Shown: positions 14,081-58,140 of the stretch, piece after piece
Layout: each line of letters starts with the position of its first letter
Position numbering within the stretch: the stretch's first letter is position 1
Source: Thalassobaculum sp. OXR-137
GTDB lineage: Bacteria; Pseudomonadota; Alphaproteobacteria; Thalassobaculales; Thalassobaculaceae
Direction: 5' to 3'
NCBI RefSeq assembly: GCF_034377285.1
Contig: NZ_CP139715.1
Span: 2,774,001 to 2,838,000, forward strand
DNA length: 64,000 nt
Notes under the pieces: generated by a model
What the model was told of the DNA's origin: nothing
The model's input: only the letters and a program-made list of their open reading frames with translations
Databases searched by the model: none
Program-made: the position numbers and the translations under genes

Positions 14081-15460
14081 ATGAAACAGCCGCCCAGGTC
14101 GATTGTCGGATGGTTCGCCGCCCTGGTCGCGGCCGTGGTTCTGGCCGCTCCGGTCCAGGCCTTGGACGCGCGCCGGGTCGATCCAGCGGCTGTGCATGCC
14201 ATTCCGAACCCAGCCCCGTCCATACGGGAGATCCGGCCGGGCGGCGTCGCCGAGAACCGGGACGCCATCGCCGTCATCGTCGGCAACCGGCGCTACGCCC
14301 ATGGCCTGCCCGAGGTCCGTTACGCCGAGAACGATGCCCAGGCCGCTCGGCGTCTGGCGGTGGGGGTGCTGGGGTACCGGCCGGGCAACGTTATCGACCT
14401 GCGCAACGCGTCCCAGGCCGAGATGCTGTCGGTCTTTGGCAGCGGGACGGATCACAAAGGCAAGCTCTGGGCCTGGGTGAAGCCCGGCGTATCCGACGTC
14501 TTCGTCTATTATTCCGGCCACGGCGTGCCGGGCCTGCGGGACAAGCGCGGCTATCTGCTGCCGGTCGACGCCGATCCGGCCACGCCGGAGATCAACGGCT
14601 ATTCCCTGGACCTGCTCCTGGCCAACCTGTCCCGGCTGGAGATCCGCTCCACCCTGGTCATGCTGGACGCCTGCTTCTCCGGCAATTCCGCCGCGGGCTG
14701 GCTGCTGCGCTCGGCCTCGCCGGTCTATATCCGCACCGAGGCACCGGCCGAGCCGATGGGCATGGCGGTGATCTCGGCCGCCCAGGGCGATCAGGTCGCG
14801 AGCTGGGACGAGGAGCGGCGTCTCGGTCTGTTCACCCGGCACATGATGGACGCCCTGGCCGGCGGTGCCGCCGACACGGGGCCCGGCGGCAATGGCGACG
14901 GGGCCGTCACCCTGGGCGAGCTGGAGGCCTATCTGGACGATGCGCTGACCTATGCCGCGCGCCGGCTCTATCGCCGGGTGCAGAAGGCGAGCGTGCAGGG
15001 CGATCCCAGGACGGTGATCGTCCCTGATCTCCGCCGCCCGCCGTCCCCGGCTCCATCCGTCTGGGCCCCCGCGCCGCTACCCGCCCCGCCGATGCCCGCC
15101 CCGCCACTACCCGCCCCCTTGCCGGGGATGCAGGACGGCAAGTACCCGCCGCCGGGCCTCTCCGTCGCCGAGGCGCAGGCCTTCGTCCTCGCCCATTGGG
15201 AGGACGTCCGGCAGACCATCCAGGAGTTCTACGCCCGTCAGGGGTCGGTCTGGGACCAGCGGGGCAACCCGCCACAGGTCGAATTCGCCGAGCATATGAA
15301 GGAGATCAGCGAGCGCCGGGTGGTCCAGGTCGCGGGCGACACTTTCGATCTGGCGATCCGCTACCGCTGGCAGGGCGGCGGCGTCTCGGACACGGCGGAG
15401 GCGATGATGCGGATCGCCGTGGCGCCGCAAGGCCTGTCGGTGGAGAAGATGTGGCGATGA
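14081..15460 (+). CDS. Exported caspase-family (C14) peptidase-like protein
   Basis: A 459-residue protein with a Sec signal peptide (cleavage near A27). The caspase fold follows: DAIAVIVGNRRYAHGLPEVRYAENDA, catalytic H147 in YYSGHG and catalytic C198 in LDACFSG. After the peptidase domain comes a proline-alanine-rich linker (about 335-355), then a C-terminal domain of about 100 residues ending in LSVEKMWR. The signal peptide places it in the periplasm, unlike cytoplasmic defence caspases. The start is ATG 14081 with CGGAG upstream; a TTG lies 24 bases earlier. The stop overlaps the next start (ATGA). It heads the 15-gene cluster. The substrate is unknown. Confidence 0.85.
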   Translation: MKQPPRSIVGWFAALVAAVVLAAPVQALDARRVDPAAVHAIPNPAPSIREIRPGGVAENRDAIAVIVGNRRYAHGLPEVRYAENDAQAARRLAVGVLGYRPGNVIDLRNASQAEMLSVFGSGTDHKGKLWAWVKPGVSDVFVYYSGHGVPGLRDKRGYLLPVDADPATPEINGYSLDLLLANLSRLEIRSTLVMLDACFSGNSAAGWLLRSASPVYIRTEAPAEPMGMAVISAAQGDQVASWDEERRLGLFTRHMMDALAGGAADTGPGGNGDGAVTLGELEAYLDDALTYAARRLYRRVQKASVQGDPRTVIVPDLRRPPSPAPSVWAPAPLPAPPMPAPPLPAPLPGMQDGKYPPPGLSVAEAQAFVLAHWEDVRQTIQEFYARQGSVWDQRGNPPQVEFAEHMKEISERRVVQVAGDTFDLAIRYRWQGGGVSDTAEAMMRIAVAPQGLSVEKMWR

Positions 15461-17085
15461 CCCCCGCCGCCCGGATTCTGCCACTGCTTGCGGCTTTGCT
15501 CCTGCTCCCGGCCGCCGTCGGTGCCGAGGATGGGTGGGCGCCGGCGCTGAGCGAACCGGCGGCGCGTCTGTGGAGCCCGCTGCCGCCCGACGCCCGGATC
15601 GCCGTGCGTCCCCTCGACCCCGACGCCAGCGGTCTGCCCGCCGCGCTGCTCGGCGTGGCGGAGCGGTCGCTCGTCGCCGCCCTGGTGGCGAGCGCGCCGA
15701 CCGGCGGCGTCGTGCTGACCCGCAGCGAGTTGCCCGCCGTCTGGGAGGAGCGGGAGAGCTTCACCGGCACCGACGCGAAAGGTCAGCTGGCCGAGGCGGC
15801 GGTCGATGCGGTGGTGGTGCCGGCCCTGGCGGAACGGCGCGGCGGGGTGTCCCTGTCGGCGGTCCTGATCGGCCTGCGCGGGCCGCAGCTCGGCGCGGTG
15901 CTCGCGGTGCTGCCGGCGACGGCGTTGCCGGCCGACCTGGAACGGTCCGACCTTGCCCGGGCGGAGTCCGGCGCCCGCCGGCTCGGGGTGGCGCTGGCCG
16001 AGGGGCTGCGGCTGGCGGCGGATCCCGCCGAAGCTATCGTCGTCCAGGTCGATCAGCGCGGCATCCGCAGTCCGGCCGCCGACTGGCTGGCCGGGATGGT
16101 CGGCGAGCATCTCATCCGCCGTCTGGCCGAGCCGCCGCCGTATCTCTCCCGTCCGCTGCGCGACCTGGGCAAGCCGGCGCCCTCGGGGGTGGTGCGCCTG
16201 AGCCTCGACCTTTGGGACCAGGGCGCGCGGCTGGATGTGCAGGCCCGGGCGGTTCTCGAGCGGACGGGACGGCAGCGGGTCGAGACGCAGGGCACCGCGC
16301 GGATCGCGCTGGCCTCGATCCCCGACGGATTTCTGCCGCTGACCCGGTCCGGCGGGCGGGTCGGGGAGGGGCTGTATCGGGCGTCGGGAGCCTACCGGCC
16401 TGCAGGCCGCACCGATCCCCGCGAGATCCGTTTCGCCGCCCGGATTCTGGCGCGCGCCGCCCTGGTCGCCGACGGGCAGGGCGGCGGCGGACATCGGGTT
16501 GGTCGGGACCCTCGCGACATCGCCGAGGCCATGCGGAGCCTCGCCCGGGTCCTGCCCCATGAGGAGATCTGGGGCGCGGCATCGGCCGGCGACGGGACCG
16601 CTACCCTGGCCGCCCGGCTGGCGCGGCTGGGCGGCGCCGATGCGCCCCGCCTGGAGGCGGCGGTGGCGCGGATGTTGTACCGGCCCGGCGAGCCGCTCAG
16701 CGCGCGGATCCTGCTGCGGGGCGGGCGCGCCTATGTCGCCGCCTATGCCTGGCAGGCCGACGACACGGTGGTGCGGATCGCCCCGACCGACGCGGCTGCC
16801 CGGGCGATGGAGCCCGACCGGCGGGTCGACCTCCCCGGCCCGGGCGATGCCCAGGTCACCGTCGCACCGCTCGCCGGCTCCGATGAGAGCGTGGAGGCGA
16901 TCCTGGTCGTCGCCAGCGCGGTGCCGTTTTCCGCCGAGACGCTGGCGCCGGCCGTGGCCGGAAGCGCCGATGCCAGTCTCGCCGGCGCGGCGCAGATGAG
17001 CGCGTTTCTCGACGCCCTGGCCGGTCTCGATCTGGCCCGGGTGAGCCTGGCGGTGCTGCCTTACCGCATCCGCGCCGCCGACTGA
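15457..17085 (+). CDS. Exported protein with CsgG-like N-domain and DUF4384-like C-domain
   Basis: A 542-residue protein with a signal peptide of about 23 residues (LLAALLLLPAAVGA). Residues 45-190 resemble the fold of CsgG/FlgT-type envelope proteins (RIAVRPLDP, AVDAVVVPALAE, then LSAVLIGLRG). Residues about 406-495 look like DUF4384 (LYRPGEPLSARILLRGGRAYVAAYAW, then VVRIAPT). DUF4384 domains are often linked with caspase-like peptidases, which matches the neighbour. It overlaps the caspase stop by four bases. It probably acts in the periplasm as a partner or regulator of the peptidase; this is inference. Confidence 0.65.
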   Translation: MTPAARILPLLAALLLLPAAVGAEDGWAPALSEPAARLWSPLPPDARIAVRPLDPDASGLPAALLGVAERSLVAALVASAPTGGVVLTRSELPAVWEERESFTGTDAKGQLAEAAVDAVVVPALAERRGGVSLSAVLIGLRGPQLGAVLAVLPATALPADLERSDLARAESGARRLGVALAEGLRLAADPAEAIVVQVDQRGIRSPAADWLAGMVGEHLIRRLAEPPPYLSRPLRDLGKPAPSGVVRLSLDLWDQGARLDVQARAVLERTGRQRVETQGTARIALASIPDGFLPLTRSGGRVGEGLYRASGAYRPAGRTDPREIRFAARILARAALVADGQGGGGHRVGRDPRDIAEAMRSLARVLPHEEIWGAASAGDGTATLAARLARLGGADAPRLEAAVARMLYRPGEPLSARILLRGGRAYVAAYAWQADDTVVRIAPTDAAARAMEPDRRVDLPGPGDAQVTVAPLAGSDESVEAILVVASAVPFSAETLAPAVAGSADASLAGAAQMSAFLDALAGLDLARVSLAVLPYRIRAAD

Positions 17086-17142
17086 GAAGGACGGCGACCG
17101 GGCGGCGCGGAAGCGAACGATCCGGCCCTGCGCCGGGAAATG

Positions 17143-17162
17143 GCCCTGGCCTGTCCATGGCT
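17143..17162 (+). promoter_or_regulatory. Repeated 20-base intergenic element, copy 1
   Basis: The sequence GCCCTGGCCTGTCCATGGCT lies 52 bases before the lipoprotein gene at 17215. Two near-identical copies stand at 18242 and 22913, each 34-38 bases before another gene of the cluster. The position suggests a shared promoter or operator. Confidence 0.55.
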
Positions 17163-17214
17163 CCGGGAAGGTCCCCACCGGTCTGCGGGCGGGGCGCGGC
17201 GCGGAGGGCGGGAA

Positions 17215-18213
17215 ATGAGGAAGGTGAGGGAGATGGCCTGCCGGGTCTTGCTGTTGACGATCGCCAGCGGATTGTTGATTTCCTGCGCTTCGGCGGCGAC
17301 CCGCGGGAACGCCCAGGATCTGGGCCGGGCCGGCGAGGGGGCGGGCGGGTCCGGGACCGGGCCGCTCAAGGTGCTGGTCCTCGGCGAGGACGGCCATGAC
17401 GCCCTGATCCCGCGCGGCGATCCGGCTTTCCGCCGCGTCGTCACCGAACTGCAGGAGATCATGGATCGCCGGGGCTTCCGGGTGGTGGACGAGGAGGCGG
17501 TGGCCGCCGATCTCGGCTGGCCGGCGCGGGACTATCGCGACAAGACCGAGGTTCTGGAGGCGGCCAAGCTGGCGAATGCGAGCGAGCGGGCCGCGTCCCG
17601 GGTGCAGGCGGCGCTGCTGTTCCGCATCGAAGGCACCTATCGCGACCTGCGCTACGCCACCCGGATCGATCTCCACCTGTCCGGCGACCTCTATGATGTG
17701 CGCAGCAACCGGTTTCTCGGCGCGGTCGATCTGCCGACGGAGAGGGTGACCGTGCCGGGGCGGTGCCTGACCGCCGCCTGCGGCTCCCACGCCGTGTCCG
17801 CGCGGGCGCGGGATCTGGCGAGCGAGCTCGGTACGGTGCTGGCGCGCAAGCTGGCGGCCCTGGCCCCGCGGGACTCGGCTACGGCGGCGCCGGTGGAGGC
17901 AGGCGCGCCGGTGCTGGAGGCGGTCTATACGGTGACGTTCCGCCACCTCACCACCGAGGAGGCGCTGTCGGTCATCGACGTCATGACCGACGGGTTCCCC
18001 GGCTACCGCAGCCATGACCTGCTGCGCGGCGGCGGCGCGGTGCGGCGCTACGAATACGTGACCACCGCCAGCGCGGCGAAGATCGAACGCTGGCTGACGT
18101 TGCTGCTGCTCGATATGGGGCTCGATCCGGAGCGCGAGATCGTTCTTGCCGTGCGCGACCGGGACATCCGGATCGAACGGGTGCTGCCGGCGACCGCGAC
18201 CACCCCCCAGTGA
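17215..18213 (+). CDS. Predicted lipoprotein of the caspase cluster
   Basis: A 332-residue protein with a lipobox (LLTIASGLLISC), so it should be lipidated on about residue 24 and anchored to a membrane facing the periplasm. The mature part is not recognised. It has a first domain starting LKVLVLGEDGHDALIP with strands and helices like CsgG-type assembly proteins, and a second one after residue 230 with VTFRHLTTEEALSVIDVMTDGFPGYRSH, which resembles the small CsgG-associated domain. The ATG at 17215 has GGAGGGCGGGA upstream; a longer frame lacks a signal. It is preceded by a 129-base gap that carries the repeated element. Confidence 0.65.
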   Translation: MRKVREMACRVLLLTIASGLLISCASAATRGNAQDLGRAGEGAGGSGTGPLKVLVLGEDGHDALIPRGDPAFRRVVTELQEIMDRRGFRVVDEEAVAADLGWPARDYRDKTEVLEAAKLANASERAASRVQAALLFRIEGTYRDLRYATRIDLHLSGDLYDVRSNRFLGAVDLPTERVTVPGRCLTAACGSHAVSARARDLASELGTVLARKLAALAPRDSATAAPVEAGAPVLEAVYTVTFRHLTTEEALSVIDVMTDGFPGYRSHDLLRGGGAVRRYEYVTTASAAKIERWLTLLLLDMGLDPEREIVLAVRDRDIRIERVLPATATTPQ

Positions 18214-18241
18214 CCGCCGGCGAGGGGGCTGCGCGAAACTC

Positions 18242-18261
18242 GCCCTGGCTCTTCCATGGCT
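18242..18261 (+). promoter_or_regulatory. Repeated 20-base intergenic element, copy 2
   Basis: GCCCTGGCTCTTCCATGGCT lies 38 bases before the gene at 18300. It differs from copy 1 at only three positions. It follows the lipoprotein stop by 28 bases. Confidence 0.55.
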
Positions 18262-18299
18262 AGGTGAACGATCGGAAAGCTGCGGCCGAGGAGGGTTTC

Positions 18300-18698
18300 A
18301 TGGAAGACGACGCGATCGCCGGCGGACTGACCGAAATCGCTCTGGCCCTGGCCATGGCCTTCTTCTGCATCCTGGTGCTGGCCCTGATGTCCATGGGCGC
18401 CCCGACCACCACCGCGCAGGACGGAGTGCCGGCGGTGCGGACCGCCGGCGGAAGCGCGGCGCCGCCCGCCGCCGAGGCGGAGCGGACCGTCGTGCTGTTT
18501 CACGCGGGAGGGTTCCGGGATCGGCAAGGGCGGACGGTCGACCCGCAAGCCTTGTCGGGACGGGTGCTGCTGGCCGTCGATCCGGCCCTGCCGCTGACCG
18601 AAGTGCTGGCGGCCCAGGGCCGGGTGGCGGGCGACGTCCTGGTCGCCGCCCTCGACCCGGCCTGGCTCGACCAGCTGCCCCGGGGCGTCGTGCCATGA
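18300..18698 (+). CDS. Single-span membrane protein with a MotB-like helix
   Basis: A 132-residue protein. GAGGAGGG precedes the ATG. Residues 10-33 form one membrane helix, LTEIALALAMAFFCILVLAL followed by MSMG. This pattern resembles the MotB/ExbD/ZorB membrane helix, with E12 where those proteins have the proton-carrying aspartate. The remaining 100 residues are periplasmic, with a proline-alanine linker and a small unrecognised domain; no OmpA-like peptidoglycan-binding domain is visible. The stop overlaps the lytic transglycosylase start. The MotB comparison is by eye and needs a profile search. Confidence 0.6.
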   Translation: MEDDAIAGGLTEIALALAMAFFCILVLALMSMGAPTTTAQDGVPAVRTAGGSAAPPAAEAERTVVLFHAGGFRDRQGRTVDPQALSGRVLLAVDPALPLTEVLAAQGRVAGDVLVAALDPAWLDQLPRGVVP

Positions 18699-19438
18699 GA
18701 GGGGGCGTTCTGGCGTTGGTCGCCGCTCTGTTGCTCGCTTCTCCCGCCGGGGCGCGGGAGGAGGGGGCTTCGCGGGAGGAGGTGCGGCGCATGGTGGTGC
18801 AGGAGGCGCTGCGCAGCGATCTGGTGCCGCCGTCCCTGGCCCTTGCGGTCGCCGAAGCGGAATCCGGGTTCGACGCCGACGCGGTCAGCCCGGCCGGCGC
18901 ACGCGGGGTCATGCAGATCATGCCGGCGACCGCGCGGGGCGAGTTCGGCGTGGCGGCGGACGAGCTCTGGAACCCCCGCCTCAACATCCAGCTCGGGATC
19001 GCCTTCCTCGAGCACCTGATCGACCGGTACGACGGCCGCTGGGATCTGGCCCTGTCGCATTACAACGGCGGCTCCGCGGTCGGGCGCGGACGCGACGCGC
19101 GCGTCATCCCGGCGACCCGCGCCTATGTGGACAAGGTGCTGACCGGCGAGCGCCGCCACGCCCGCGACGCCGCGATCCGCGCCCTGACCGACAGCGTCGC
19201 CGACGCCGCCGCCGGGCTCGACCGGCAGGGGCGCGTACTGGCCCTGGCCGACGTCGCGCCCGACCGCCCAGCCGACCGTGCCGCTGCCGAGCGCGAAAGC
19301 CGGCACGGCGACCCGCACCGGGAGTGGCCGCCGGTCCGGCACGGGGCCCTGGACGACGACCGGTCCGGCTCGGCCGGGCTGCTGGACCGCATCGCCCGGC
19401 GCAAGGCCCGGTTCCGCGCGCTTCTCGTTTCCGGTTGA
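18695..19438 (+). CDS. Exported lytic transglycosylase (SLT domain)
   Basis: A 247-residue protein with a signal peptide (VLALVAALLLASPAGA). The SLT domain covers about 35-145: E56 in AEAESGFDADAVSPAGARG is the expected catalytic acid, followed by VMQIMPATA, LWNPRLNIQLG and the LSHYNGGS segment. It should cleave peptidoglycan, as expected for a complex that crosses the cell wall. The C-terminal 90 residues are charged and probably disordered. It overlaps the preceding membrane protein gene by four bases. Confidence 0.85.
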   Translation: MRGGVLALVAALLLASPAGAREEGASREEVRRMVVQEALRSDLVPPSLALAVAEAESGFDADAVSPAGARGVMQIMPATARGEFGVAADELWNPRLNIQLGIAFLEHLIDRYDGRWDLALSHYNGGSAVGRGRDARVIPATRAYVDKVLTGERRHARDAAIRALTDSVADAAAGLDRQGRVLALADVAPDRPADRAAAERESRHGDPHREWPPVRHGALDDDRSGSAGLLDRIARRKARFRALLVSG

Positions 19439-19505
19439 AAAATACGCGATCATAAACTCCAATGCGTGCAGGAGCTTCGCCCCGCGACCCGATCAGGATA
19501 CCGCC

Positions 19506-21146
19506 ATGGACGGCATCTCCACCGAACGCGCGCTGCTCTCCGGGGCGATCAGTCCGGAGCTGGAGGCGGCATTCCGCACGGTGGCGGATGCGGATCTCGG
19601 CGGCGGGCGAAAATATGCGCCGGCGATCATGCGCGCCCTGTCCCGCACCGTCGCCGCCCGGGCCTACGGCAAGCCGATGCTCGAGCTTTGCCACCTGCTG
19701 CGGGTCGCCGATGCGGTCGGCGGGCGCCACGGCTGGCCCGCCCTGATCTTCGGGGTTCAGGTCGCCCGCGGCCCGGCCTTCCGCGCCCATGTCCAGGACG
19801 GGGCCCGCCGCTGCCCGGCCTTCGGCCAGGATTTCCGGCTGGAGGCGGACGGGGTGACGATCGCCTATCCCGACGGGCCGTTCACCGTGAGCTACGGGCG
19901 CATGGGCTTTCTCGCCGCCCTGCTGGAGCTGATGGTCACGGCCCTGGGCTACCGGGCGGTCGATGCGGAGATCCGCGCCTGGCTGGACGCCCCGTTCGAC
20001 GGCCGCCGGGCCACGGCCCATGCCAATGCCCTGTCCCGCCTGTTCTACGACCACCTGCGGGAGCATCTGTCGACCGCCCAGAGCCTGCGGATCTTCGCCC
20101 GGATCGTCGGCTTCCTGGAGGCCGACCGCGGCGGGGGCTTCACCCTGGACGATCTCGACGACCGCGCCGTGCTGGACTACTGGCACCGGGGCGTCACCGC
20201 CGGCGACGAGGACGCGGCGGAGCTGCGCGGATTCCGGGCCGTCACCGAGCGCTTCGGCATGCTGCGCACGGCCCTGCAGGCGGCATTCGAGCGCCATGCC
20301 GTCGACACCGCCGCGCCGGTCGGCCCCGACCGGGATGCGGGGGAGGTCGATCCCGGCACGATCCTCGCCCTGGTGGAGGCGCATGACGGGGAGGCCGACG
20401 AGCTGCGGGCGTTGCAGGGCGACCCGGCCGCCGCGGTGAAGTTCCTCACCGGCAAGGAGGTCGGCGAGCTCGACCTGATCGCCCGGCTCGGCTCCCATGC
20501 CGGCACCCTCGCGCTTTCCGTCCTGCGCGCCTCCACCTTCGGCGCGGTCCAGGCCCGGTTGAGCCAGGCCATGCGCCGCCGGGCGCCCGAGGCGGAGGTC
20601 GCGGCGTTGATCGGTCTCAGCGCGTGCGAAACCTACGGTCAGCGGCTCGAGCAGTGGCGGCGCCTGGAGCGCCGGCTCGACCGCATGGCCCTGGCGGCGC
20701 TCGCGGTGCTGGTCGACGCCGACCGGGCCGAGGCGGCGTTGGAGGTCCTGGCCTGGGTGCCGGCGGCCGATCTGAGCGGCCTGCGGGATCGGCTGCCGAG
20801 TGCCGAGGACGGCCCCAATGTCGTCGCCTTGCGGCCGGGCGGGGTCGCCGGCATGGTCGCCGCCCTGGCCGATCCGACCGTCGTCGGACCCGACGTCGCC
20901 GGACTGATCGCCGACGCCCGGCGGGCCCTGCGCGGTCTCGCCCGGTCCGGCTTCGCCCCGGAGGACCGGCGGTCGGGCGCGGCGGTCGACGGCATGGCGG
21001 CGGGCGCGCCGTTGGTGCGGCGCCTGCTGGTGCGGCTTCAGACCGTGCGCGCCACGGCCGAGAAGCGGATCGGCGACGGCGGTTTCGCTCGGGACGCGGA
21101 CCGCTTCCGCGACGGCTTCCGGGCTCTGTACGGCGCCGCCGCATGA
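19506..21146 (+). CDS. Unknown 546-residue cytoplasmic protein of the caspase cluster
   Basis: No signal peptide or membrane span is visible; the protein is mostly helical. No known motif was recognised. It starts with MDGISTERALLSGAI and has a repeated-helix look throughout, with KYAPAIMRALSRTVAARAYG near residue 37 and a second half rich in short helices. The ATG at 19506 follows GGATACCGCC; a longer open frame upstream overlaps the transglycosylase and is a shadow. The downstream gene starts inside its stop codon, so the two products are probably made in fixed ratio. Its size and position suggest a cytoplasmic scaffold or adaptor of the complex. Confidence 0.65.
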   Translation: MDGISTERALLSGAISPELEAAFRTVADADLGGGRKYAPAIMRALSRTVAARAYGKPMLELCHLLRVADAVGGRHGWPALIFGVQVARGPAFRAHVQDGARRCPAFGQDFRLEADGVTIAYPDGPFTVSYGRMGFLAALLELMVTALGYRAVDAEIRAWLDAPFDGRRATAHANALSRLFYDHLREHLSTAQSLRIFARIVGFLEADRGGGFTLDDLDDRAVLDYWHRGVTAGDEDAAELRGFRAVTERFGMLRTALQAAFERHAVDTAAPVGPDRDAGEVDPGTILALVEAHDGEADELRALQGDPAAAVKFLTGKEVGELDLIARLGSHAGTLALSVLRASTFGAVQARLSQAMRRRAPEAEVAALIGLSACETYGQRLEQWRRLERRLDRMALAALAVLVDADRAEAALEVLAWVPAADLSGLRDRLPSAEDGPNVVALRPGGVAGMVAALADPTVVGPDVAGLIADARRALRGLARSGFAPEDRRSGAAVDGMAAGAPLVRRLLVRLQTVRATAEKRIGDGGFARDADRFRDGFRALYGAAA

Positions 21147-21688
21147 CGGCGGGCTGGAACGCGCTGGACCGCGACGGCCAGGAGATTGCGGCGACGGTCT
21201 TCGTTGCCCTGGATGCCGCGCGGGCGCTGAGCGACGGGGCGGCCCGGAGCGTTTCCTCCGCCGCCCGACCGTCGCCCTCCGCCATCTGGTCTGCCCTGGC
21301 GACCGGCCGTCCCCTGCCGGCCGGCATCGAGGCCGACGCGGATCTCGACGCCCTGCTGGCGGATGCCGCCGCCGTCGCGTTCCCCCGTCCGGCCGCGGCG
21401 GCGACCCCCCAGGCGGCGTCCCTGCCGGCGTCGATCGACCGCCGGGCGGAAGGGGCGCGGATCCGGGTCGTCGCCTCCCGCGGCGCGCCGGGGCAGAGCT
21501 ATGTCACGGTCGCCCTGGAGGAAACCGCGGTTCCGGTGACCCGCCTGATCGTCGTGCTGGATGCGCGGGCACCGGTGGAGGTCGCCCTGCCGGCCCCGCG
21601 CGCCGGCGCGATCCAGCTTCTCGTCGACGATGCCGATCCGCTCCTGGGGGCCCTGAGGGATGCGGATGCCCGTCTCTACCTCGTGTAA
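21143..21688 (+). CDS. Unknown 181-residue protein of the caspase cluster
   Basis: A soluble protein with an N-terminal helical half (NALDRDGQEIAATVFVALD) and a C-terminal strand-rich half (ARIRVVASRG-like segment, SYVTVALEET, RLIVVLDARAPVEVALP). It overlaps the preceding gene (ATGA) and ends three bases before the GTG of the Lon-like gene. No family was recognised. The strand-rich half could be a small binding domain. Confidence 0.55.
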   Translation: MTAGWNALDRDGQEIAATVFVALDAARALSDGAARSVSSAARPSPSAIWSALATGRPLPAGIEADADLDALLADAAAVAFPRPAAAATPQAASLPASIDRRAEGARIRVVASRGAPGQSYVTVALEETAVPVTRLIVVLDARAPVEVALPAPRAGAIQLLVDDADPLLGALRDADARLYLV

Positions 21689-21691
21689 GGC

Positions 21692-22906
21692 GTGACGGCC
21701 GAGCGCACCGATCGGCCGGCGGCGGCCGGCGACCGGCTGCGGGTCGCCATCGCCACCACGGCCGGGCCCAGCGTGGTGCGCCGGATCACGCCGGAGGATC
21801 CGGAGCTGCGCTCGGTGGTCTGCCTCCGGGGCACTGCGACCGCCCTGGCGATCTCCGACGATTACGACGCGTTCGTGCGCCGGCCCACCGGGGTGGTCGA
21901 GCGGGACGTCGGCCACCGGGTCTTCCGGGTCGATGTCGACCGCCCCATCGACGACGGGCGGAGCTGGCAGCTCGGCCTCTACATCGCCCATCGTCTGAAG
22001 GCCGCGGGCCGGCTCGCCGAGGACGATGAGCCGGCGGCCGGCATCGTCTGGGCCACCGGCACCGTCTCCGCCGACCTGGCGATCGGACCGGTGGAGCGGG
22101 TGGCGGAGAAGGCGCGCCGCTCGGCCGACTTGATGGCGGTGGGGGTGCCCGTGCTCGCCGTCGCCGCCCCGGTCCATGCCGACGCCCTACCCGACCTGGC
22201 GGAGCCGCTCGCGGCGGCGCGGGTGGAGGAGGTTCTGGCCCATCTCGGCCTGGCGGCGCCCAAGGTCCGGCGTGGCGATCCGAGGCGGCGCGCCGGGGCC
22301 GCCGTGGCGCTGCTCCTGGCTGTCGGCGGCGGCTTCTGGGCCCTCCGGCCGGACGGTGAGGCAGCGCGCAGCCCGCCCGACGCCGTCCCGTCGGCGGAGG
22401 CATCCGCATCGCCGATGCCCGCCGGGCCGCCGGCCTTCGATGCCGGGGCCGTGGCCTTCGAGGTGCTGGAGGCGCGGATGGCCGGCGACGGTTGCGGCAC
22501 CGGGCATCCCGTCGATCCGGCGGTGGTCTCCGTTGCCGGGGTCTGTGCGGTGGCGTTCCGCGCGACCAATACCGGGGGCGGGCCCGTGCGGCTGTGGCTG
22601 TATGGGGCCGTCCAGGGGGGCGTGCGCGAATACGCCTCGCGCCGGCGCCACACCGAACTGGCGGTCGGGACCCTCGATCCCGGCGCGAGCGGCACAGTCC
22701 GGGTGCAGCCGCCGGACTGGGCGCGGCGCCCGATCGTGGTGCGCGGCTTGCTGGTTCTGGCCGAGGGCGACCGGCCACAGGTCGACGGTGCGCTTGCCGG
22801 TATCGACCTGCTGTCGGCCGGCGAGGTCGACACGCTGGTCGCCGGACTGCGCGATCTGGACGTGGAGGTGCGAGAAATTTTTCATCGGGTGACGCCGGCA
22901 CGCTGA
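21692..22906 (+). CDS. Membrane-anchored protein with a Lon-like (S16) protease domain
   Basis: A 404-residue protein starting with GTG. Residues 60-165 resemble the Lon protease domain: S91 in DDGRSWQLGLYIAH corresponds to the GPSAG serine, and K140 in PVERVAEKARR to the KEK lysine, after WATGTVSADLAIG which matches the Lon MTGEI strand. No ATPase domain is present. A membrane helix (about 201-218) follows, then a proline-alanine linker and a strand-rich C-terminal domain of 150 residues in the periplasm, with FEVLEARMAGDGCGTGHP. So a cytoplasmic protease-like head is tied to an envelope domain. The assignment is by motif order only; activity is unproven. Confidence 0.55.
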   Translation: MTAERTDRPAAAGDRLRVAIATTAGPSVVRRITPEDPELRSVVCLRGTATALAISDDYDAFVRRPTGVVERDVGHRVFRVDVDRPIDDGRSWQLGLYIAHRLKAAGRLAEDDEPAAGIVWATGTVSADLAIGPVERVAEKARRSADLMAVGVPVLAVAAPVHADALPDLAEPLAAARVEEVLAHLGLAAPKVRRGDPRRRAGAAVALLLAVGGGFWALRPDGEAARSPPDAVPSAEASASPMPAGPPAFDAGAVAFEVLEARMAGDGCGTGHPVDPAVVSVAGVCAVAFRATNTGGGPVRLWLYGAVQGGVREYASRRRHTELAVGTLDPGASGTVRVQPPDWARRPIVVRGLLVLAEGDRPQVDGALAGIDLLSAGEVDTLVAGLRDLDVEVREIFHRVTPAR

Positions 22907-22912
22907 AAACCG

Positions 22913-22932
22913 GCCCTGGGCTGTCCATGGCG
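22913..22932 (+). promoter_or_regulatory. Repeated 20-base intergenic element, copy 3
   Basis: GCCCTGGGCTGTCCATGGCG lies 34 bases before the lipoprotein gene at 22967 and seven bases after the Lon-like gene's stop. Compared with copy 1 it differs at three positions, including the last base. Confidence 0.55.
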
Positions 22933-22966
22933 ATGGAGATCACCCCGCTCGCCGCAGGAGGCAGCC

Positions 22967-23515
22967 ATGGGCAAAGCCGGGCTCCGTTCCGTTTCCGCCG
23001 TCGCGCCAGCCGTCACCCTGGCCGTGACCCTGGCTGCGGCCTTGGCCGCCTGCGCCGTGCCGCCTCCGCCGGCGGCGGAGGGGATCGGCTATCGCGAGGC
23101 GCGGTTCGCCGAGGTGGAGGCCATGCGGGCCTACCGGTCCTGCCGCGACGAGGGACTGGCTCTGGACCGGCAGGCGCGCGCGTCCGGCGATGCCGTCCGC
23201 TACCTCGCGGTCGCCCGACTGCTGGAGGGCTGCGAGGCGGATCTCGGTGCCGCGGCCGCCCAGCTCGATCTGGAAGAGCGCATGCGCGCCTACGCGGTGG
23301 CGGTGCAGAGCCGACTGAAAGGCGGCGACGTGGCGGGCGCGCGCGCCGGTCTGGATCGGTTCGCGGAGGCGTTTCCGGCCCGCGACCTGTACTTCGAGGA
23401 CGGGGCGTCCTTCCTCGACAGCCTGCGGGCGGTGGTCGCGGCGGAAAGCGGGCGGGGCAGCGTGCCGCGCCCGCTGGCCGAGGAACTGGCCCGGATCGAA
23501 CGGTGGCACCGATGA
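22967..23515 (+). CDS. Small predicted lipoprotein of the caspase cluster
   Basis: A 182-residue protein with a long signal (TLAVTLAAALAAC) and a cysteine at about residue 29 that fits a lipobox. The mature part is helical and charged, with two more cysteines (YRSCRDEG and LEGCEADLG) that could pair. No family recognised. GGAGG precedes the ATG. The next gene starts in its stop codon. Confidence 0.65.
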   Translation: MGKAGLRSVSAVAPAVTLAVTLAAALAACAVPPPPAAEGIGYREARFAEVEAMRAYRSCRDEGLALDRQARASGDAVRYLAVARLLEGCEADLGAAAAQLDLEERMRAYAVAVQSRLKGGDVAGARAGLDRFAEAFPARDLYFEDGASFLDSLRAVVAAESGRGSVPRPLAEELARIERWHR

Positions 23516-24402
23516 GGGCGCTCCGGAGCGTGCGGCTTGCTGTGCTGGCGGCCCTGGTCTGCGCCGCCGCGGGGATGCGGCCGGGATCGGCCCAGGAACC
23601 GCCGAGCTGGGCCCCGGTGGCGAGCGAGACGCTTGTGCGCTTGCCGACTTTCTCTCTGGAAAAGGCGGTGGAGCGGGATTTCCGCGACTCCTCCCTGGCC
23701 GATGCCCTGCGCGACACGGCGGCGGCCGCGGACGGCGCCGCCGGGTCCCTGGCTGCTCTTCAGGCGGCGGCCGAGGCCACGTCGGGGCCGGAGCGTGACG
23801 CGGCGCGCCATCGCTTCCTGGTCGCCAAGCAGGATTACGTGGCCCTGATGGGCGCGCGTCAGGATCTGGAGCGCCGGCGGATCGAGACCGAACTCGGCCT
23901 CTACAGGCGGCTTCTGGAGCGGGTGACCCGTGCCGGATCGCCGGCCGGCGATCCGGCGCTGGCGGATCTTGCGGACCGGCGCCAGGCGGCGCAGCGGCGG
24001 CTCGAGGCGAGTGCCGAGGCCGTCGACATGAAGCTATTCGCCGCGTCCGCGGCACCGGAGAGCCGATACGGGCGCGAGTACCGCATCCAGGCGGCCGCCA
24101 TCGACGGTCTGCTGGCGGCGATCGACGCCCATCCGATGAACGCCGCGCCCGTCGTGGACGGCCGCGACCTCGGCAAGGCCGAGTATCTGGCGCACCTCAT
24201 CGCCGAGGCGGAGAGCGGACTGGCCCTGCTCGATCAGAAGGATCTGGTGCTGGCCTATATGGCGAAGCTGGTGGCGCTGGACGCGATGGCTCTGGCCGAC
24301 GAGGTGGAGACCCGGCCCCAGGGCGGTGCGACGGGTGCTGGCCGACCGCCCGATCTGCGCGACCCGAGCGCGGCGGTCGGTTTCTTCACCGCCCCGCAGT
24401 GA
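23512..24402 (+). CDS. Exported helical coiled-coil protein
   Basis: A 296-residue protein with a signal peptide (VLAALVCAAAGMRPGSAQ). The mature part, from about residue 60 to 260, is almost all helix, with RQDLERRRIETELGLYRRLL and DLADRRQAAQRRLEASAE typical of coiled coils. It should act in the periplasm, perhaps as a spacer or structural rod. It overlaps the lipoprotein gene by four bases. A longer open frame upstream is a shadow of the previous gene. Confidence 0.65.
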   Translation: MRALRSVRLAVLAALVCAAAGMRPGSAQEPPSWAPVASETLVRLPTFSLEKAVERDFRDSSLADALRDTAAAADGAAGSLAALQAAAEATSGPERDAARHRFLVAKQDYVALMGARQDLERRRIETELGLYRRLLERVTRAGSPAGDPALADLADRRQAAQRRLEASAEAVDMKLFAASAAPESRYGREYRIQAAAIDGLLAAIDAHPMNAAPVVDGRDLGKAEYLAHLIAEAESGLALLDQKDLVLAYMAKLVALDAMALADEVETRPQGGATGAGRPPDLRDPSAAVGFFTAPQ

Positions 24403-24408
24403 GCTCGG

Positions 24409-24460
24409 CTTGCCCAGGTCCCGACTTGCTCAGGTCCAGGTTGGGCCCGCTCCAGGTCTT
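24409..24460 (+). repeat. Short direct repeats upstream of the gene at 24498
   Basis: CTTGCCCAGGTCC (24409-24421) and CTTGCTCAGGTCC (24425-24437) repeat with a 16-base period, and a further CCAGGTC stands at 24452. They fill a 95-base gap inside the cluster and could be an operator. Confidence 0.4.
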
Positions 24461-24497
24461 CGCTGTCCGGAGGTCCTGTCGACATAAGGAGGAAGCC

Positions 24498-24884
24498 ATG
24501 GTGCCGATGATCCCGTTCGTTCTCGCCGTGTTGTTGTTCCTGATCCCGGGCGGGGCCGCCTCGGCCGATGCGCTGGAAAGCCTGGAGCGGGAGCGGGCCA
24601 GGCTGCTCGTCACCCTGCTCGACCCGGACCGGGAGGCGGCGGCCCGGCAGAGCGCGGTGGAGGTCGCCCGGCGCCGGTTGATCGACCTGGAGCGGATCGC
24701 CCTGCGCGACCCGAAGACGGCGGCCGACACCCGGCCGATCGCCCGGCGGGCCTTCGCCGATTACGACCTGACGTTCCTCGCCCACGCCTCGCTCGAGCGG
24801 GACATGGCGGTGCTCGACCTCTGGCTCGAGCGGGTCGGCCTGTCGACCGCGCGGATCATGGCCGCCCGGGTGGGACGGCGGTGA
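24498..24884 (+). CDS. Small exported helical protein
   Basis: A 128-residue protein with an excellent AAGGAGG ribosome site and a signal peptide (PFVLAVLLFLIPGGAASA). The mature 105 residues are charged helices (LESLERERARLLVTLLD) and resemble in style the coiled-coil protein encoded just upstream. No family recognised. The next gene starts at its stop codon. Confidence 0.65.
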   Translation: MVPMIPFVLAVLLFLIPGGAASADALESLERERARLLVTLLDPDREAAARQSAVEVARRRLIDLERIALRDPKTAADTRPIARRAFADYDLTFLAHASLERDMAVLDLWLERVGLSTARIMAARVGRR

Positions 24885-25402
24885 TGCGGCCGGGCGCGGT
24901 TCCGGCCCGGCCCGGGCCGGGGGAGGTGTCGCGGGCGCTGGCGATCCTGCTGGCGGCGGTGAGTATCGGTCTCGCCCTTGCGGTCTGGACGACCGGCGAC
25001 CGGCCCTCGGCGCTCGCTCTGCAGGCGGAGCGGGTGACCGGGCCGGTGTTCATCGCCGGTGTCCTGCTCCTGACGCTGATCGCCCTGGTGGCGGCCGTCC
25101 GGCTGCATCGCAATCCCGGCGACCGGACCTGGCGCGCGCTGGGACTGCAGGCCGCCTCGGGGATCGCCACCCTGGCCCTGACCTTCACCCTGCTGGGCAT
25201 CGGTCTCGGCATCTCCAGCCTGTCCAGCGCGCCGATCGGGCCGGACACGGTCGCGGGGGTGATCGCCACCCTGACCGGCCGGTTCGCCCTGGCCTTCGCC
25301 ACCACCGTGGTCGGGCTGCCCCTGGCCGCCTCGCTGCGCGCCGTGCTGCTGGTGCTGGCCTCCCGCCGGCCCGGGGCGCAGGAGCGGGGGGACACACCGT
25401 GA
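24881..25402 (+). CDS. Four-helix membrane protein resembling MotA/TolQ/ExbB
   Basis: A 173-residue integral membrane protein with helices at about 16-36, 54-75, 91-114 and 135-160. The last two, with LTFTLLGIGLGISS and RFALAFATTVVGLPLAASL, follow the pattern of the proton-channel helices of MotA/TolQ/ExbB, where a GLLGTV-type helix is followed by a helix with AL-TT--GL. It is shorter than those families and lacks a large cytoplasmic loop. It starts with GTG (an ATG follows immediately) overlapping the previous stop. Together with the MotB-like helix at 18300 it suggests an ion-driven pair. By-eye assignment. Confidence 0.5.
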   Translation: MMRPGAVPARPGPGEVSRALAILLAAVSIGLALAVWTTGDRPSALALQAERVTGPVFIAGVLLLTLIALVAAVRLHRNPGDRTWRALGLQAASGIATLALTFTLLGIGLGISSLSSAPIGPDTVAGVIATLTGRFALAFATTVVGLPLAASLRAVLLVLASRRPGAQERGDTP

Positions 25403-25827
25403 AGTTCGTCCTGTTCAACGCCGTGGTGGGCGCGGCCCTGGCCTATCTGATCCTGGCGGAGCGCGGCCAGACCCCTGCCGACTGGGTGCCGGATCCCCGG
25501 CAGCGCGTGGCGGAAGCGGTGGCTCCGGCGTCCTCTGGGGCCGATCTCCCGGTTGCGGTCGGTCCCGCGCCGCAGCCGGATCGGTCTCCATCGGGCGAAC
25601 CTGCGGCCCCGGCACCGGACTCGGTCTCGCAGGGGCCGGGCGCGCCGGCGGGACGTCCGGGTGAACCCCGACCGGACCCTCCTCCGTCGGCAGGTCCCCC
25701 GCCTGACGGGCCGAGGTCCGACCCGGTGCAGGCATTGCTCCATGACCTGCCGGCGCGGGATTTGCCGGACCGCCTGCGCGACCTCGCCCGGACCATGGAG
25801 AGCCGGTTCCTCGCCGGCATGAAGTGA
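25399..25827 (+). CDS. Single-span protein with long proline-rich periplasmic region
   Basis: A 142-residue protein starting with GTG in the previous stop (GTGA). Residues 2-20 form a membrane helix (VLFNAVVGAALAYLILA). Residues 45-110 are rich in proline, alanine and glycine, as in TonB-type spacers, and a short helix at the end (DLPDRLRDLARTMESRF) closes the protein. It may span the periplasm. No acidic residue lies in the helix, so it is not an obvious TolR/MotB protein. Confidence 0.6.
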   Translation: MKFVLFNAVVGAALAYLILAERGQTPADWVPDPRQRVAEAVAPASSGADLPVAVGPAPQPDRSPSGEPAAPAPDSVSQGPGAPAGRPGEPRPDPPPSAGPPPDGPRSDPVQALLHDLPARDLPDRLRDLARTMESRFLAGMK

Positions 25828-26691
25828 ATGGCGGCCGCCGAGGATACGGCGCCCGAGGAGAAGGCGCCGAAAGTGACGGCGCCCGACGCACCGGCCGTCT
25901 TGCAACACGCCTCCGGCCTGTGGGCCCCGGTCCTGCTGGCCCTGGTTCTTGGCGCTCTGGTCTTTCTCGCCCGGAACCCGGCCGGGCCGCCCCCTCGATC
26001 CAGTCCGCCGCCGGTCGCCTCGGTCCATCCGATGCCGCGGGCGATGGCTTTGACCGGGATCGGCCTGCCGCCGCCTCCGATCCCGGCGGGCGCGGCCGCG
26101 TCGGCGCCTGCACCCGCCCGCCCGCCCGCGGAGCCGGCCGCTTCCGGATCGCCCGAGAGCCCCAGCCGGGAGGCCGGGACCGCTGCCGGGGCGGCGCTGC
26201 TCCGGGCCTTGTCGTCCGGGACGGGCCCGACCCTGACCCTGCTCTGGCCGCCGTCGCCGGCGGACCGGCGGCGGATCGCCGACCATCTCGCCCGCTGCGG
26301 CGGCCTGGTCGTGGCGCTGATGGCGGCGGGACGGCTTTGGCGGCTGGAGGATCCGCCGGGCCGGCCTTGGACCGGTCGCGACGGCTATTCCCCGCTGCTC
26401 CGCCGGGCGGACGCTCTCGCCGCCGCCGGCTCGGGACGGCTGGCGCAGCGGATCCGGACCCATCACGGGAGGCGGGACGGCACGCCGGTGGCCTTGCTGG
26501 CGCGGGACTTCGATGCCCGTCTGCTCGGCGGTCTCGCCCGGCTGGCCGGCCCCGGCGCGACGGCCCTGTCCGCCGCCTATGCGGTGGACGGGGACCTGCT
26601 CGTGCTTGCCGATATCCGCATCGACGGCCGGCCGGCCGGCTCATCGTCCGGCGACCGGGTCGCGCTGGGGAGGCTCGGGCAATGCGACTGA
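25828..26691 (+). CDS. Single-span protein with periplasmic unknown domain
   Basis: A 287-residue protein beginning directly after the previous stop with no gap. A cytoplasmic tail of 30 residues, a membrane helix (about 31-48, LWAPVLLALVLGALVFLA), a proline-alanine linker (50-120) and a C-terminal domain of 150 residues follow; the domain includes TLTLLWPPSPADRRRIADHL, a cysteine in LARCGGLVVALM and the segment SAAYAVDGDLLVLADIRIDG. No family recognised. Its end overlaps the lipoprotein start at 26682 by ten bases. Confidence 0.6.
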   Translation: MAAAEDTAPEEKAPKVTAPDAPAVLQHASGLWAPVLLALVLGALVFLARNPAGPPPRSSPPPVASVHPMPRAMALTGIGLPPPPIPAGAAASAPAPARPPAEPAASGSPESPSREAGTAAGAALLRALSSGTGPTLTLLWPPSPADRRRIADHLARCGGLVVALMAAGRLWRLEDPPGRPWTGRDGYSPLLRRADALAAAGSGRLAQRIRTHHGRRDGTPVALLARDFDARLLGGLARLAGPGATALSAAYAVDGDLLVLADIRIDGRPAGSSSGDRVALGRLGQCD

Positions 26692-27436
26692 TCCGGGCGG
26701 CGCCGATAGGGCGGGGTCTCGGCCTCGCCCTGCTCCTGGGCGTGTCGGCCTGCATCGCGGTTCCCGCGCCGGATCCGGGCGGGGAGGGGCCGACTCCGGA
26801 CTTCTGGCGCGCCCCCCGTCCTGCGTGGCGATCCTGCCGGCCGCCGCGTCGGGAGAGATCGCGGCCCGGGTCGCCGAGCACGCCTTGACCCGGCACCTGT
26901 CCGGCCGGGTCGATACCGTCATCGGGCCCGAGGCGCGCGACCGTCTGACCCGCCGGCTGGCCCTCGATCTGGCGCCCGCCGCTTTTCCTGAATTTTCGCA
27001 AGACGCATCCCTCGATTCCGGCGTTCCATACGACGATTTTCGTGTCACCGAACGCCAGTCGGTGGAACGAAAACGTTTCGCCGAGCGGGTCGGATGCGGC
27101 CATGGTGCCGAGCTGTCGGTGCACGCGACCCGCACCTTCGCGGTCGTCTGGAGCGTGGCGCAGGTCGATCTGGCGCTGCGACTCGTGGACCTGCGCCACG
27201 GCGTCACCCTGTGGCGGTCCCGGCATCGGGCGAGCCGCGGCGCGGGCGGCGTGCCGGCCTCGCCTGTCGGTCTCGCGCTGGCCCTGGGGCAGGCCGGGCT
27301 TTTCGTCGCCGACCGGGACCTGCTGGCCTCGGTCCTGGACGACGGGCTGCGGGCGGTGCTGCGCGATCTGCCGGACATGCGCGGTCACCCGCACTCCCCG
27401 CCGCCGGTCCCGCCGCCGCCCGGTCCAATCCCTTGA
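26682..27436 (+). pseudogene. CsgG/GNA1162-like lipoprotein gene, frame broken at a C6 run
   Basis: Translation from ATG 26682 (GGGGAGG upstream) gives a signal with the lipobox LLLGVSAC, but the frame is then lost. From about 26818 the coding continues one frame over with SCVAILPAAASGEIAARVAE and, later, VDLALRLVDLRHGVTLWRS, which is typical of CsgG-like envelope lipoproteins. The two frames join if the six-C run at 26812-26817 had seven Cs, giving an intact 251-residue lipoprotein. A sequencing error, a true mutation or phase variation at the C run are all possible. It is the last gene of the cluster. Confidence 0.7.
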
Positions 27437-50954: not shown

Positions 50955-52691
50955 ATGGGGCGTTACGGAGCCAAGCGGAAGCAACTCGACGTGCTGAAGC
51001 GTAGGGTCGAGGAGATCGTCTCGACCGAGCCGACGGTCTTCGAAGTGCCGTTCTCGACCCTTTGGGATGTTTCGTCCCCAAGCCTGCGCGGCAAGCTCGC
51101 GCTGCAAGGTCGTCCGGACGCGCCGCACCGTTCCGTCGCCCTGATCCCTGAGAAGGTCGCGAACGATAACGACTGGTCAGCCCTTGCTGTTCCATACGAG
51201 CGCGATCTCGCAGCCAGCCTCGAAGAGCGGCTCTCTGTCCGGAAGCCCATCGCCGAAGACTTCGACCCCTTCAACTACAACCCGGTCCTGTGGTCGCCGT
51301 TCTCGGGATCTCAGATGCTGTTCCTGGCATCGCCCGTCCGGGAGGTGCTCTTCCACGGATCGCGAGGGACCGGGAAGTCTGACACCCTATTGATGGACTT
51401 CGCGCAAGACGTAGGGCGAGGCTGGGGCGCGCACCTGAAGGGATTGATCGTCCGGCGGACGTTCCCCGAGTTGAAGGACCTGATCGACAAGTCGTCGAAG
51501 CTCTTCCCCGTCCTCTATCCCGGCGCCCGGTACAACGCGTCCGATCATGTCTGGCGCTTCCCTGGCGGCGAACAGTTGGTCTTCGGCTACCTCGACCGCC
51601 CCACCGATTACCTTCGCTATCACGGCCACGAGGTGACGTTCCTCGGGTTCGACGAGCTTACGTCCTGGGTGGACTCGAAGGCGTATCTTGAGCTTCAGAC
51701 GACGGTCAGGTCGCCGGTCTCCGGCATCCCGTTGAAGATCCGGGCGACGACGAACCCGAGCGGACCGGGCCACAACTGGGTGATGCGCCGGTTCATCGAC
51801 AAGGTCGAGCCGGGCGAGGTCTTTGCCGATCCTGAGACCGGGCTGACCCGGTCGCACGTTTTCTCCAACGTCATCGAGAACGTGTTCATCGCGAACAGCT
51901 ACCTACCGACCCTCCGGGCGATTGAGGAGCCGAACCGGCGCCGGGCTTGGCTCTATGGCGACTGGAACGTGACGGCTGGCGGAGCCCTAGACGATCTCTG
52001 GAAGCGCGAGGCGCACGTCCTGACTCCGTTTGATGTCCCGGCGACGTGGCGGGTCTCGCGGTCTTATGACCACGGCGAGTCCTCGCCCGGTGCCTGTCTC
52101 TGGATCGCCGAGAGCAACGGCGACGACGCGACGATGGCCGATGGGACAAAGCGGAGCTTCCCCGCCGGTACGCTCTTCGTGATCGTCGAGTATTTCACGG
52201 CGAAGCAAGGGACGTTTGACCAGGGGCTGCGGCTACCGGCGAAAGAGGTCGCGACAAACATCAAAGAGTATGAGCGCGTCAACCCGCGCCTATTTAGACA
52301 CCGGGTCGCGCCCGGCCCGGCGGATAACAGCATCTTCGACGCGGGGTCCGGGAACTCCGACTCAATCGCGAAGCAGATGGCAAAAATCGGTGTCCATTGG
52401 GATCGGTCGGACAAGTCGCCCGGCTCGCGCCGGAATGGCCTCTCTCTGGTCCGCCAGAGGCTCAAGGAGAGCCTGCGCGGATACGAGGGTGGGTACATGG
52501 ATGGGCCGGGGTTGTTCGTCTTCTCGACCTGCGAGGCGGTGCTGGCTACGGTTCCAAGCCTGCCGCGCAACCCGAAGGATCTCGACGACGTCGATACGAC
52601 GGCGAACGATCACGCATACGACGCTCTGCGCTACCGGGTCCTCGCCGGAGCGCGAGGGAAGGGCGGGTCGAAGAAAATCAAGATGGGCTAA
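50955..52691 (+). CDS. terL: Large terminase subunit
   Basis: A 578-residue packaging motor. Walker A is HGSRGTGKS (K141), Walker B is TFLGFDELTSW (D233, E234), and the C-terminal nuclease begins with D372 in VSRSYDHGESS; later DTTANDHAYDALRY supplies further metal ligands. It starts four bases after the TerS stop. It cuts phage DNA and pumps it into proheads. Confidence 0.9.
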   Translation: MGRYGAKRKQLDVLKRRVEEIVSTEPTVFEVPFSTLWDVSSPSLRGKLALQGRPDAPHRSVALIPEKVANDNDWSALAVPYERDLAASLEERLSVRKPIAEDFDPFNYNPVLWSPFSGSQMLFLASPVREVLFHGSRGTGKSDTLLMDFAQDVGRGWGAHLKGLIVRRTFPELKDLIDKSSKLFPVLYPGARYNASDHVWRFPGGEQLVFGYLDRPTDYLRYHGHEVTFLGFDELTSWVDSKAYLELQTTVRSPVSGIPLKIRATTNPSGPGHNWVMRRFIDKVEPGEVFADPETGLTRSHVFSNVIENVFIANSYLPTLRAIEEPNRRRAWLYGDWNVTAGGALDDLWKREAHVLTPFDVPATWRVSRSYDHGESSPGACLWIAESNGDDATMADGTKRSFPAGTLFVIVEYFTAKQGTFDQGLRLPAKEVATNIKEYERVNPRLFRHRVAPGPADNSIFDAGSGNSDSIAKQMAKIGVHWDRSDKSPGSRRNGLSLVRQRLKESLRGYEGGYMDGPGLFVFSTCEAVLATVPSLPRNPKDLDDVDTTANDHAYDALRYRVLAGARGKGGSKKIKMG

Positions 52692-52708
52692 ACAGGACCC
52701 TTGTGTGC

Positions 52709-53527: not shown

Positions 53528-53685
53528 AGGACCGTGCCGAAAAATCTAGTCGATCTCAGTGGAGCGCCTAACACCTGCTAGATTAGTAGACCTGTCGTTG
53601 GTTACCAGTCGATACAATACGGTCGATATATTTCGGTCATCCGCCGGCAGTGCCGGCCCCTCCCTCGTCTGTGACAGGAGCTACA

Positions 53686-54624: not shown

Positions 54625-54662
54625 GGCAGGTTGGTGGGCGGCGGAAAGTAGGGAGGCTCGGC

Positions 54663-55109: not shown

Positions 55110-55276
55110 TTGACGCTTCCCTCTCTAGACGGCACTCAAAAGGGCGGCTCGTCTCACATCGCTAACGTACCTTAGGCCAACCCGCCGATTACTTCCCGGC
55201 GGACCAATCCCGGCAAATTGAACTTGTCCGAGGCAGTGCCGACGACGCCAAGTTCAGTGAACCGGGAACCTTTGAA

Positions 55277-56791: not shown

Positions 56792-56798
56792 CTGACCG

Positions 56799-57938: not shown

Positions 57939-58111
57939 CCTGAGGGCGCGCTTCACCGAGCGCAGTTGTGTACGCATTAACTGATATGTGCAGTCGAATC
58001 TCCTGGTGGACGGAGTATCGACGGTTCGTCCGCCCAAGCTAGCCGTGTCGAGCGAAGGGCGACGAACTTGCGTGAGAAAATGTTTATTGGTTCTATATGA
58101 ATAGTTATGAA

Positions 58112-58140
58112 TTGACATGGTTCATCAGGAATCGTATCTG
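58112..58140 (+). promoter_or_regulatory. Sigma-70-like promoter of the cargo gene at 58184
   Basis: TTGACA (58112-58117) is a perfect -35; TATCTG (58135-58140) follows with a 17-base spacer. It is 43 bases before the ATG in an AT-rich stretch. Confidence 0.6.

Follow-up and report, generated by a model that had tools for sequence, protein, structure and literature searches.

A conserved gene cluster of marine Alpha- and Gammaproteobacteria encodes a putative TolQ/ExbB-like membrane protein and an anchored Lon-type protease domain

ExbB-ExbD-TonB, GldLM, AglRQS and ZorAB have been grouped as ion-driven machines (PMC10341847). YlbL/DdcP of Bacillus has a membrane-tied Lon domain without an ATPase (PMC6051672), and a published survey has reported that DUF4384 occurs with domains of the caspase, trypsin-like and kinase types (PMC6426788). 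Here we describe fifteen genes (g1-g15; Table 1) at positions 14,081-27,436 of the window, the 64-kb stretch of the Thalassobaculum sp. OXR-137 contig NZ_CP139715.1 that was analyzed (host genome 5.65 Mb in three contigs). The putative motor component of this cluster is near a known kind, while the rest of the core set matches no described system in the family libraries and open-licence papers searched, and we found no description of the gene set there. We propose, with roughly even confidence, that the locus is one copy of a conserved two-module trans-envelope system that is ion-driven and coupled to regulated proteolysis.

The cluster had been picked out by an original prediction made from the DNA sequence. 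All fifteen open reading frames lie on the + strand, as it stated, and its assignments of an exported caspase-fold peptidase with H147/C198 (g1), a DUF4384-type partner (g2), three lipoproteins with one out of frame (g3, g9 and g15) and an SLT transglycosylase (g5) were borne out. Only g1 (caspase) and g5 (SLT) scored above Pfam cut-offs among the 15 proteins; g3, g4, g6-g11, g13 and g14 reached no family cut-off in the Pfam search, and an NCBIfam scan gave a below-cut-off caspase domain and chance matches, nothing else.

Conservation and linkage of two gene blocks

A g12 profile scan of one genome per species (84,980 species) yielded 119 relatives, and we read 80 loci. The closest named relatives of the cluster were Thalassobaculaceae. 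Other loci with g12 relatives came from Rhodospirillales, Terasakiella, Magnetovibrio and SAR116, and the gammaproteobacterial loci from Glaciecola, Colwellia, Paraglaciecola, Pseudoalteromonas, Agaribacter and Ningiella. When iterated profiles were applied to 28 neighborhoods, several Thalassobaculaceae loci showed the full or nearly full g1-g15 order, and distant loci showed blocks of it. A search for g8 found it in 15 of 36 family genomes and 15 of 289 class genomes.

Quantitation used the 43 well-flanked loci, each extending 8.5 kb or more to either side of g12. Four genes (g9, g10, g11 and g14) were present in all 43, followed by g13 (39), g6 (37), g7 and g8 (36 each), g4 (32), g5 (30), g3 (27), g15 (20), g2 (15) and g1 (8). 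Genes g9-g14, which we call block B, were collinear on one strand in 42/43 loci, and the g6-g7-g8 triad was collinear in 36/36 well-flanked loci holding all three genes. Both blocks occur in Alpha- and Gammaproteobacteria. Linkage is kept even in SAR116 loci, where the blocks are divergent (inverted) yet adjacent. The set that stays linked in many marine Alpha- and Gammaproteobacteria numbers about eleven genes. Dozens of genomes share the order, and residues are invariant in both classes, which is more than chance would give. The predicted envelope cluster is therefore a conserved one, sharing its order with other Alphaproteobacteria and also with Gammaproteobacteria. Neither outcome that would have spoken against the original prediction, a gene order without conservation or genes of unrelated known families, was seen.

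The two blocks also co-occur. Among 367 class genomes, g12 and g6 were each found in 21, and 14 genomes carried both against about 1.2 expected (hypergeometric p = 1.7e-15, which is overstated since related genomes are not independent). One genome (G352) contains both blocks though they lie about 300 kb apart; proximity alone therefore does not explain the g12/g6 link. Counting against a single system, g12 without g6 and g6 without g12 were each found in seven genomes, so the modules are not obligatory partners. Such genomes speak for two independent neighbors, namely a motor/lipoprotein complex (g4, g5, g9-g15) beside a g6-g7-g8 protease module of its own, to which the caspase and DUF4384 proteins are accessory: one genus and several further genomes have just the triad, and block B occurs without it in others. 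Because co-occurrence is far above chance, even with the blocks inverted or hundreds of kilobases apart, we find this alternative very doubtful.

A TolQ/ExbB-like membrane protein and its candidate partner

We examined g12 by structure prediction and profile comparison. A monomer model made with AlphaFold2 from 84 sequences (predicted local distance difference test, pLDDT, 91.9) has two very long helices, 81-115 and 123-160. When this model was used with Foldseek, the top 21 rows were all TolQ or MotA complexes (E 0.1-0.6). With VIA-align, the top 9 rows were TolQ or ExbB (Z 9.8-11.6), including TolQ at Z 11.6 (2.7 Å, 112 residues) and ExbB at Z 10.7; the first unrelated row had Z 9.7, and ZorA (8vvi_C) aligned with Z 9.2 and 19% identity. 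MotA_ExbB was the Pfam family most often matched by g12 members (17/84, always below cut-off), and the MotA/ExbB comparison with g12 ranked first of 52 in an hhalign panel (E 0.02).

Several points weigh against this assignment. The best MotA_ExbB E-value among the 84 members, 0.017, misses the Pfam cut-off, all Foldseek E-values are at least 0.1, and, for a helical bundle, a Z of about 11 cannot decide the matter by itself. The structure is a monomer prediction, and around ALTFTLLGI, the search pattern, the named set overstates how conserved g12 is. Searches of the PDB with the g12 and g4 sequence profiles gave no relevant match. The lines of evidence are weak singly; together, they make it likely that g12 is remote kin of the MotA/TolQ/ExbB superfamily.

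Like TolQ and ExbB, g12 has two very long C-terminal helices, threonine-rich motifs and a predicted fold that aligns with TolQ, and it is accompanied by a separate single-span protein with a conserved acidic residue, g4. Unlike them, it has only 172 aa, carries an additional span at its N terminus and lacks a large cytoplasmic domain, and it falls below the Pfam cut-off. The predicted fold thus agrees with the four-helix MotA/TolQ/ExbB-like protein of the original prediction. Its "MotA/MotB-like" pair survives in part: a motor-type g12 and a partner-like gene at 18,300 (g4) are present, but they resemble TolQR/ExbBD rather than MotAB, since the best profile match of g4 is ExbD and the best structures for g12 are TolQ and ExbB. 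As the same genome has separate MotA_ExbB/ExbD pairs elsewhere, g12 and g4 would form an additional system.

The assignment of g4 as an ExbD-like partner of g12 is reasonable but unproven. Glu12, at the start of its single transmembrane helix, is present in 98% of 58 sequences; ExbD and TolR have Asp where g4 has Glu. ExbD was the best of 52 hhalign comparisons with g4 (E 0.0038-0.0058), yet this match is weak (probability 6-9%) and falls mainly over the periplasmic domain, not the transmembrane helix, which counts against the pairing. A search of the host genome with PF02472 did not report the g4 position. We detected g4 in 12/12 named genomes tested; in 10 of these it was absent from the stretch first read, and in several it lay just outside. 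It was also present in 16/18 alphaproteobacterial genomes with g12, the two exceptions being assemblies of >400 contigs, and in 2/6 genomes with g6 but without detected g12. This pattern indicates that g4 follows g12.

The g6-g7-g8 triad and its Lon-type protease domain

S91 and K140 of g8 were invariant in 61 sequences, with G89, W92 and G123 conserved in at least 98%; in an alignment of 24 sequences, T22, G89, S91, W92, G123 and K140 were all invariant. The dyad lies in motifs matching those of Lon (GxSWQLG; TG...K). Comparison of the g8 profile with the PDB gave archaeal Lon as the best match (E 5.9e-5), and further Lon domains were matched. A Pfam search of the 404 aa of g8, allowing E-values up to 1, did not detect the AAA+ ATPase domain of full-length Lon. 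By these sequence criteria, g8 contains a Lon-type (S16) Ser-Lys protease domain without an ATPase, in keeping with the membrane-tethered Lon-like domain that had been predicted. As a basic stretch precedes the span, the sequence suggests that the Lon domain is cytoplasmic and that the tail with two conserved cysteines is periplasmic. Compared by description only, YlbL/DdcP is alike in having a membrane-tied Lon domain without an ATPase. Unlike Lon proteases, including YlbL/DdcP, g8 combines a predicted cytoplasmic Lon domain with a two-cysteine periplasmic tail and has fixed partners, g6 and g7.

An AlphaFold2 model of g6 (pLDDT 85.3) consists almost entirely of helices. Neither Foldseek nor VIA-align found a confident match to this model in the PDB, which is no proof of a new fold.

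Two observations concern the triad in other genomes. In five loci from one genus of the same family (L038-L042), the triad alone occupies the same chromosomal place, beside the DUF1194 gene, and g4, g5 and g9-g15 are absent there. In another locus (L045; G287:C1:3287000-3306900), g6 and g8 are broken by stops or frame breaks, consistent with a decayed copy or assembly errors.

Proposed architecture, accessory genes and inheritance

In the two-module system that we propose, g12 with its candidate partner g4, which has Glu12, would form an ion-driven inner-membrane motor, and the single-span, proline-rich g13 and g14 would carry its movement through the cell wall, which g5 may open locally. The proteins g9, g10 and g11, with the further lipoproteins, would make up the periplasmic and outer-membrane part. 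The second module would be a cytoplasmic g6-g7-g8 complex, in which the Lon-type protease is anchored by one span to the two-cysteine periplasmic domain. How the envelope part moves, or what state it is in, could then regulate proteolysis by g8 on the cytoplasmic side.

Several of these components would also suit an energized Tol/Ton-like machine for outer-membrane transport or assembly, one that moves or inserts lipoproteins, lipids or a polymer and uses its proteases for quality control, not as a signal output. The three lipoproteins, the transglycosylase, the TolQR-like pair and the proline-rich arms fit such a machine, as do the GNA1162-like g15 and the largely vertical inheritance described below. 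However, neither a channel nor a receptor of the outer membrane turned up in Pfam scans of the cluster, and the Lon-type protease is a candidate for a cytoplasmic-side function. TonB_C gave no hhalign signal in g14, a result that tells against this machine and against our own proposal; the g14 profile had no match in the PDB. We regard the transport reading as possible, though unlikely. As for the nearest named systems, the Pfam search of the 15 proteins detected none of the TolA, TolB and Pal of a Tol-Pal operon and no TonB_C domain, and we found no support for g14 as a TonB, which it resembles in layout only (span, proline-rich stretch, C-terminal domain).

If correct, the proposed system would be a new branch among the ion-driven envelope machines (flagellar stators, Tol, Ton, Gld, Agl and Zorya), with a component set unseen in them: at least seven core families below Pfam cut-offs and an anchored Lon-type protease. 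The further step, that it represents a new class of energized transmembrane signaling in which an ExbB/ExbD-type motor and an ATP-independent cytoplasmic Lon-type protease convert the state of the wall or outer membrane into regulated proteolysis, we consider doubtful. Carriers include Terasakiella, Glaciecola, Colwellia, Paraglaciecola, Pseudoalteromonas and SAR116, which suggests that the system has a role in marine bacteria, and the cultured isolates among them would permit direct genetic tests.

The caspase and DUF4384 genes belong to the accessory part. The His-Cys dyad of the g1 p20 domain (H147/C198) and its spacing are kept in homologues, and the N-terminal half of g2 is weakly similar to g3 (hhalign E 0.01). 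Since g1 was found in 8/43 and g2 in 15/43 well-flanked loci, both are accessory rather than core, and the combination of caspase and Lon does not define the system; here we depart from the original prediction, which had described the cluster by both protease-type enzymes. As in bacterial orthocaspases with DUF4384 (PMC6426788), the caspase gene adjoins DUF4384; unlike them, the caspase here is exported as a protein in its own right and is an optional addition to a conserved envelope system. OmpA-family proteins, caspases and trypsin-like proteases are encoded near other copies of the cluster. Lineage-specific outputs or sensors might plug into the core, caspase and DUF4384 in this genome and OmpA, subtilisin, trypsin-like proteins or Ser/Thr kinases with FHA proteins elsewhere. 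At L052:2129-4363, a subtilisin (Peptidase_S8) is fused to an OmpA domain and adjoins two caspase genes and the triad. Ser/Thr kinase genes lie in or beside eight gammaproteobacterial clusters (L143, L146, L150, L153, L154, L179, L181 and L185); at L143:232-4639, a kinase with an FGE-sulfatase domain is followed by an FHA protein.

The mode of inheritance bears on whether the cluster is an anti-phage or abortive-infection system of the Zorya type, in which the motor would act as sensor and caspase and Lon would do the killing. In its favor are the resemblance of g12 to ZorA, the occurrence of caspases in defense systems and the patchy presence in 21/367 class genomes. However, PADLOC returned a weak caspase match and nothing else among the ten proteins scanned, and the caspase is confined to the few loci counted above. 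A g10 tree follows taxonomy, with 22/23 gammaproteobacterial rows in one supported clade, and phage, plasmid and viral-contig searches gave no match to the cluster. In Thalassobaculaceae, the locus keeps its chromosomal neighbors and has a fixed place between housekeeping genes. These three features argue against a mobile defense island and point to largely vertical inheritance. We therefore consider a defense function quite improbable, and the killing output suggested in the original prediction found no support here. Zorya itself was among the known defense systems that we rejected. The likeness is confined to an ExbB-type membrane protein with a ZorA-like fold: g12 is too short for the long ZorA tail, g4 has no OmpA domain, and PADLOC gave no match to ZorC, ZorD or ZorE; the vertical distribution is also unlike that of a defense island. 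The one exception in the g10 tree, a metagenome-assembled genome labeled Gammaproteobacteria (L126), has a SAR116-type cluster and lies inside SAR116; it is perhaps mislabeled, or reflects transfer.

Table 1. Genes of the cluster, with coordinates in the window
Gene	Product and features	Position	Strand	Basis
g1	Exported caspase-fold (C14) peptidase, H147/C198; accessory	14081..15460	+	Pfam Peptidase_C14 E 1.9e-13
g2	Secreted, C-terminal DUF4384; accessory	15457..17085	+	DUF4384 in 11/11 family members, best E 6.9e-17
g3	Lipoprotein, LLISC lipobox; no Pfam family	17215..18213	+	C184, C189, L213 invariant
g4	Single-span, Glu12 at transmembrane helix start, periplasmic domain; candidate ExbD/TolR-like partner	18300..18698	+	E12 conservation, hhalign with ExbD, tracking of g12
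g5	Exported SLT lytic transglycosylase, catalytic-type E56	18695..19438	+	Pfam SLT E 1.1e-23; motif
g6	546 aa, cytoplasmic, nearly all-helical; first triad gene	19506..21146	+	AlphaFold2 pLDDT 85.3; no Pfam
g7	181 aa, cytoplasmic; second triad gene	21143..21688	+	A85, A86, R100, Q158 conserved; no Pfam
g8	N-terminal Lon-type Ser91/Lys140 domain, one span, predicted periplasmic tail with C268 and C285, no ATPase	21692..22906	+	PDB Lon profile match E 5.9e-5
g9	Lipoprotein (C29); opens block B	22967..23515	+	C29 invariant, alignment n = 16
g10	Exported, probably helical	23512..24402	+	53% mean column identity, alignment n = 16
g11	Small exported protein, invariant ERERA motif	24498..24884	+	43/43 loci
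g12	Four-span, TolQ/ExbB/MotA/ZorA-like, without large cytoplasmic domain	24881..25402	+	AlphaFold2 pLDDT 91.9; structure matches
g13	N-terminal span, proline-rich linker, short conserved C-terminal helix	25399..25827	+	39/43 loci
g14	N-terminal span, proline-rich stretch, C-terminal domain, C157 and C286 invariant	25828..26691	+	43/43 loci; TonB/TolA-like in layout only
g15	GNA1162-like lipoprotein in two frames: lipobox frame from 26,682, rest after break	26682..27436	+	Relatives single-frame

The 14 junctions between g1 and g15 comprise six 4-bp overlaps, one 10-bp overlap, one abutting pair, one 3-bp gap and five gaps of 60-129 bp. The earlier description of mostly four-base or smaller overlaps is roughly right. 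Within g15, the frame breaks at a CCCCCC run near 26,812. Since g15 relatives use a single frame and the interruption coincides with this run, the sequence identifies the split as a frameshift or assembly error, not overlapping genes. A weak GNA1162-like match was found in 6/14 members of the g15 family.

No promoter-like sites were found across the cluster region, and terminator-like matches were few. The cluster is flanked by an arginase-family gene on one side and by a LysR regulator and the DUF1194 gene on the other. Further along the window, at 50955-61238, are prophage-like genes encoding a terminase (Terminase_6N), a DUF4055 protein and a tape-measure protein.

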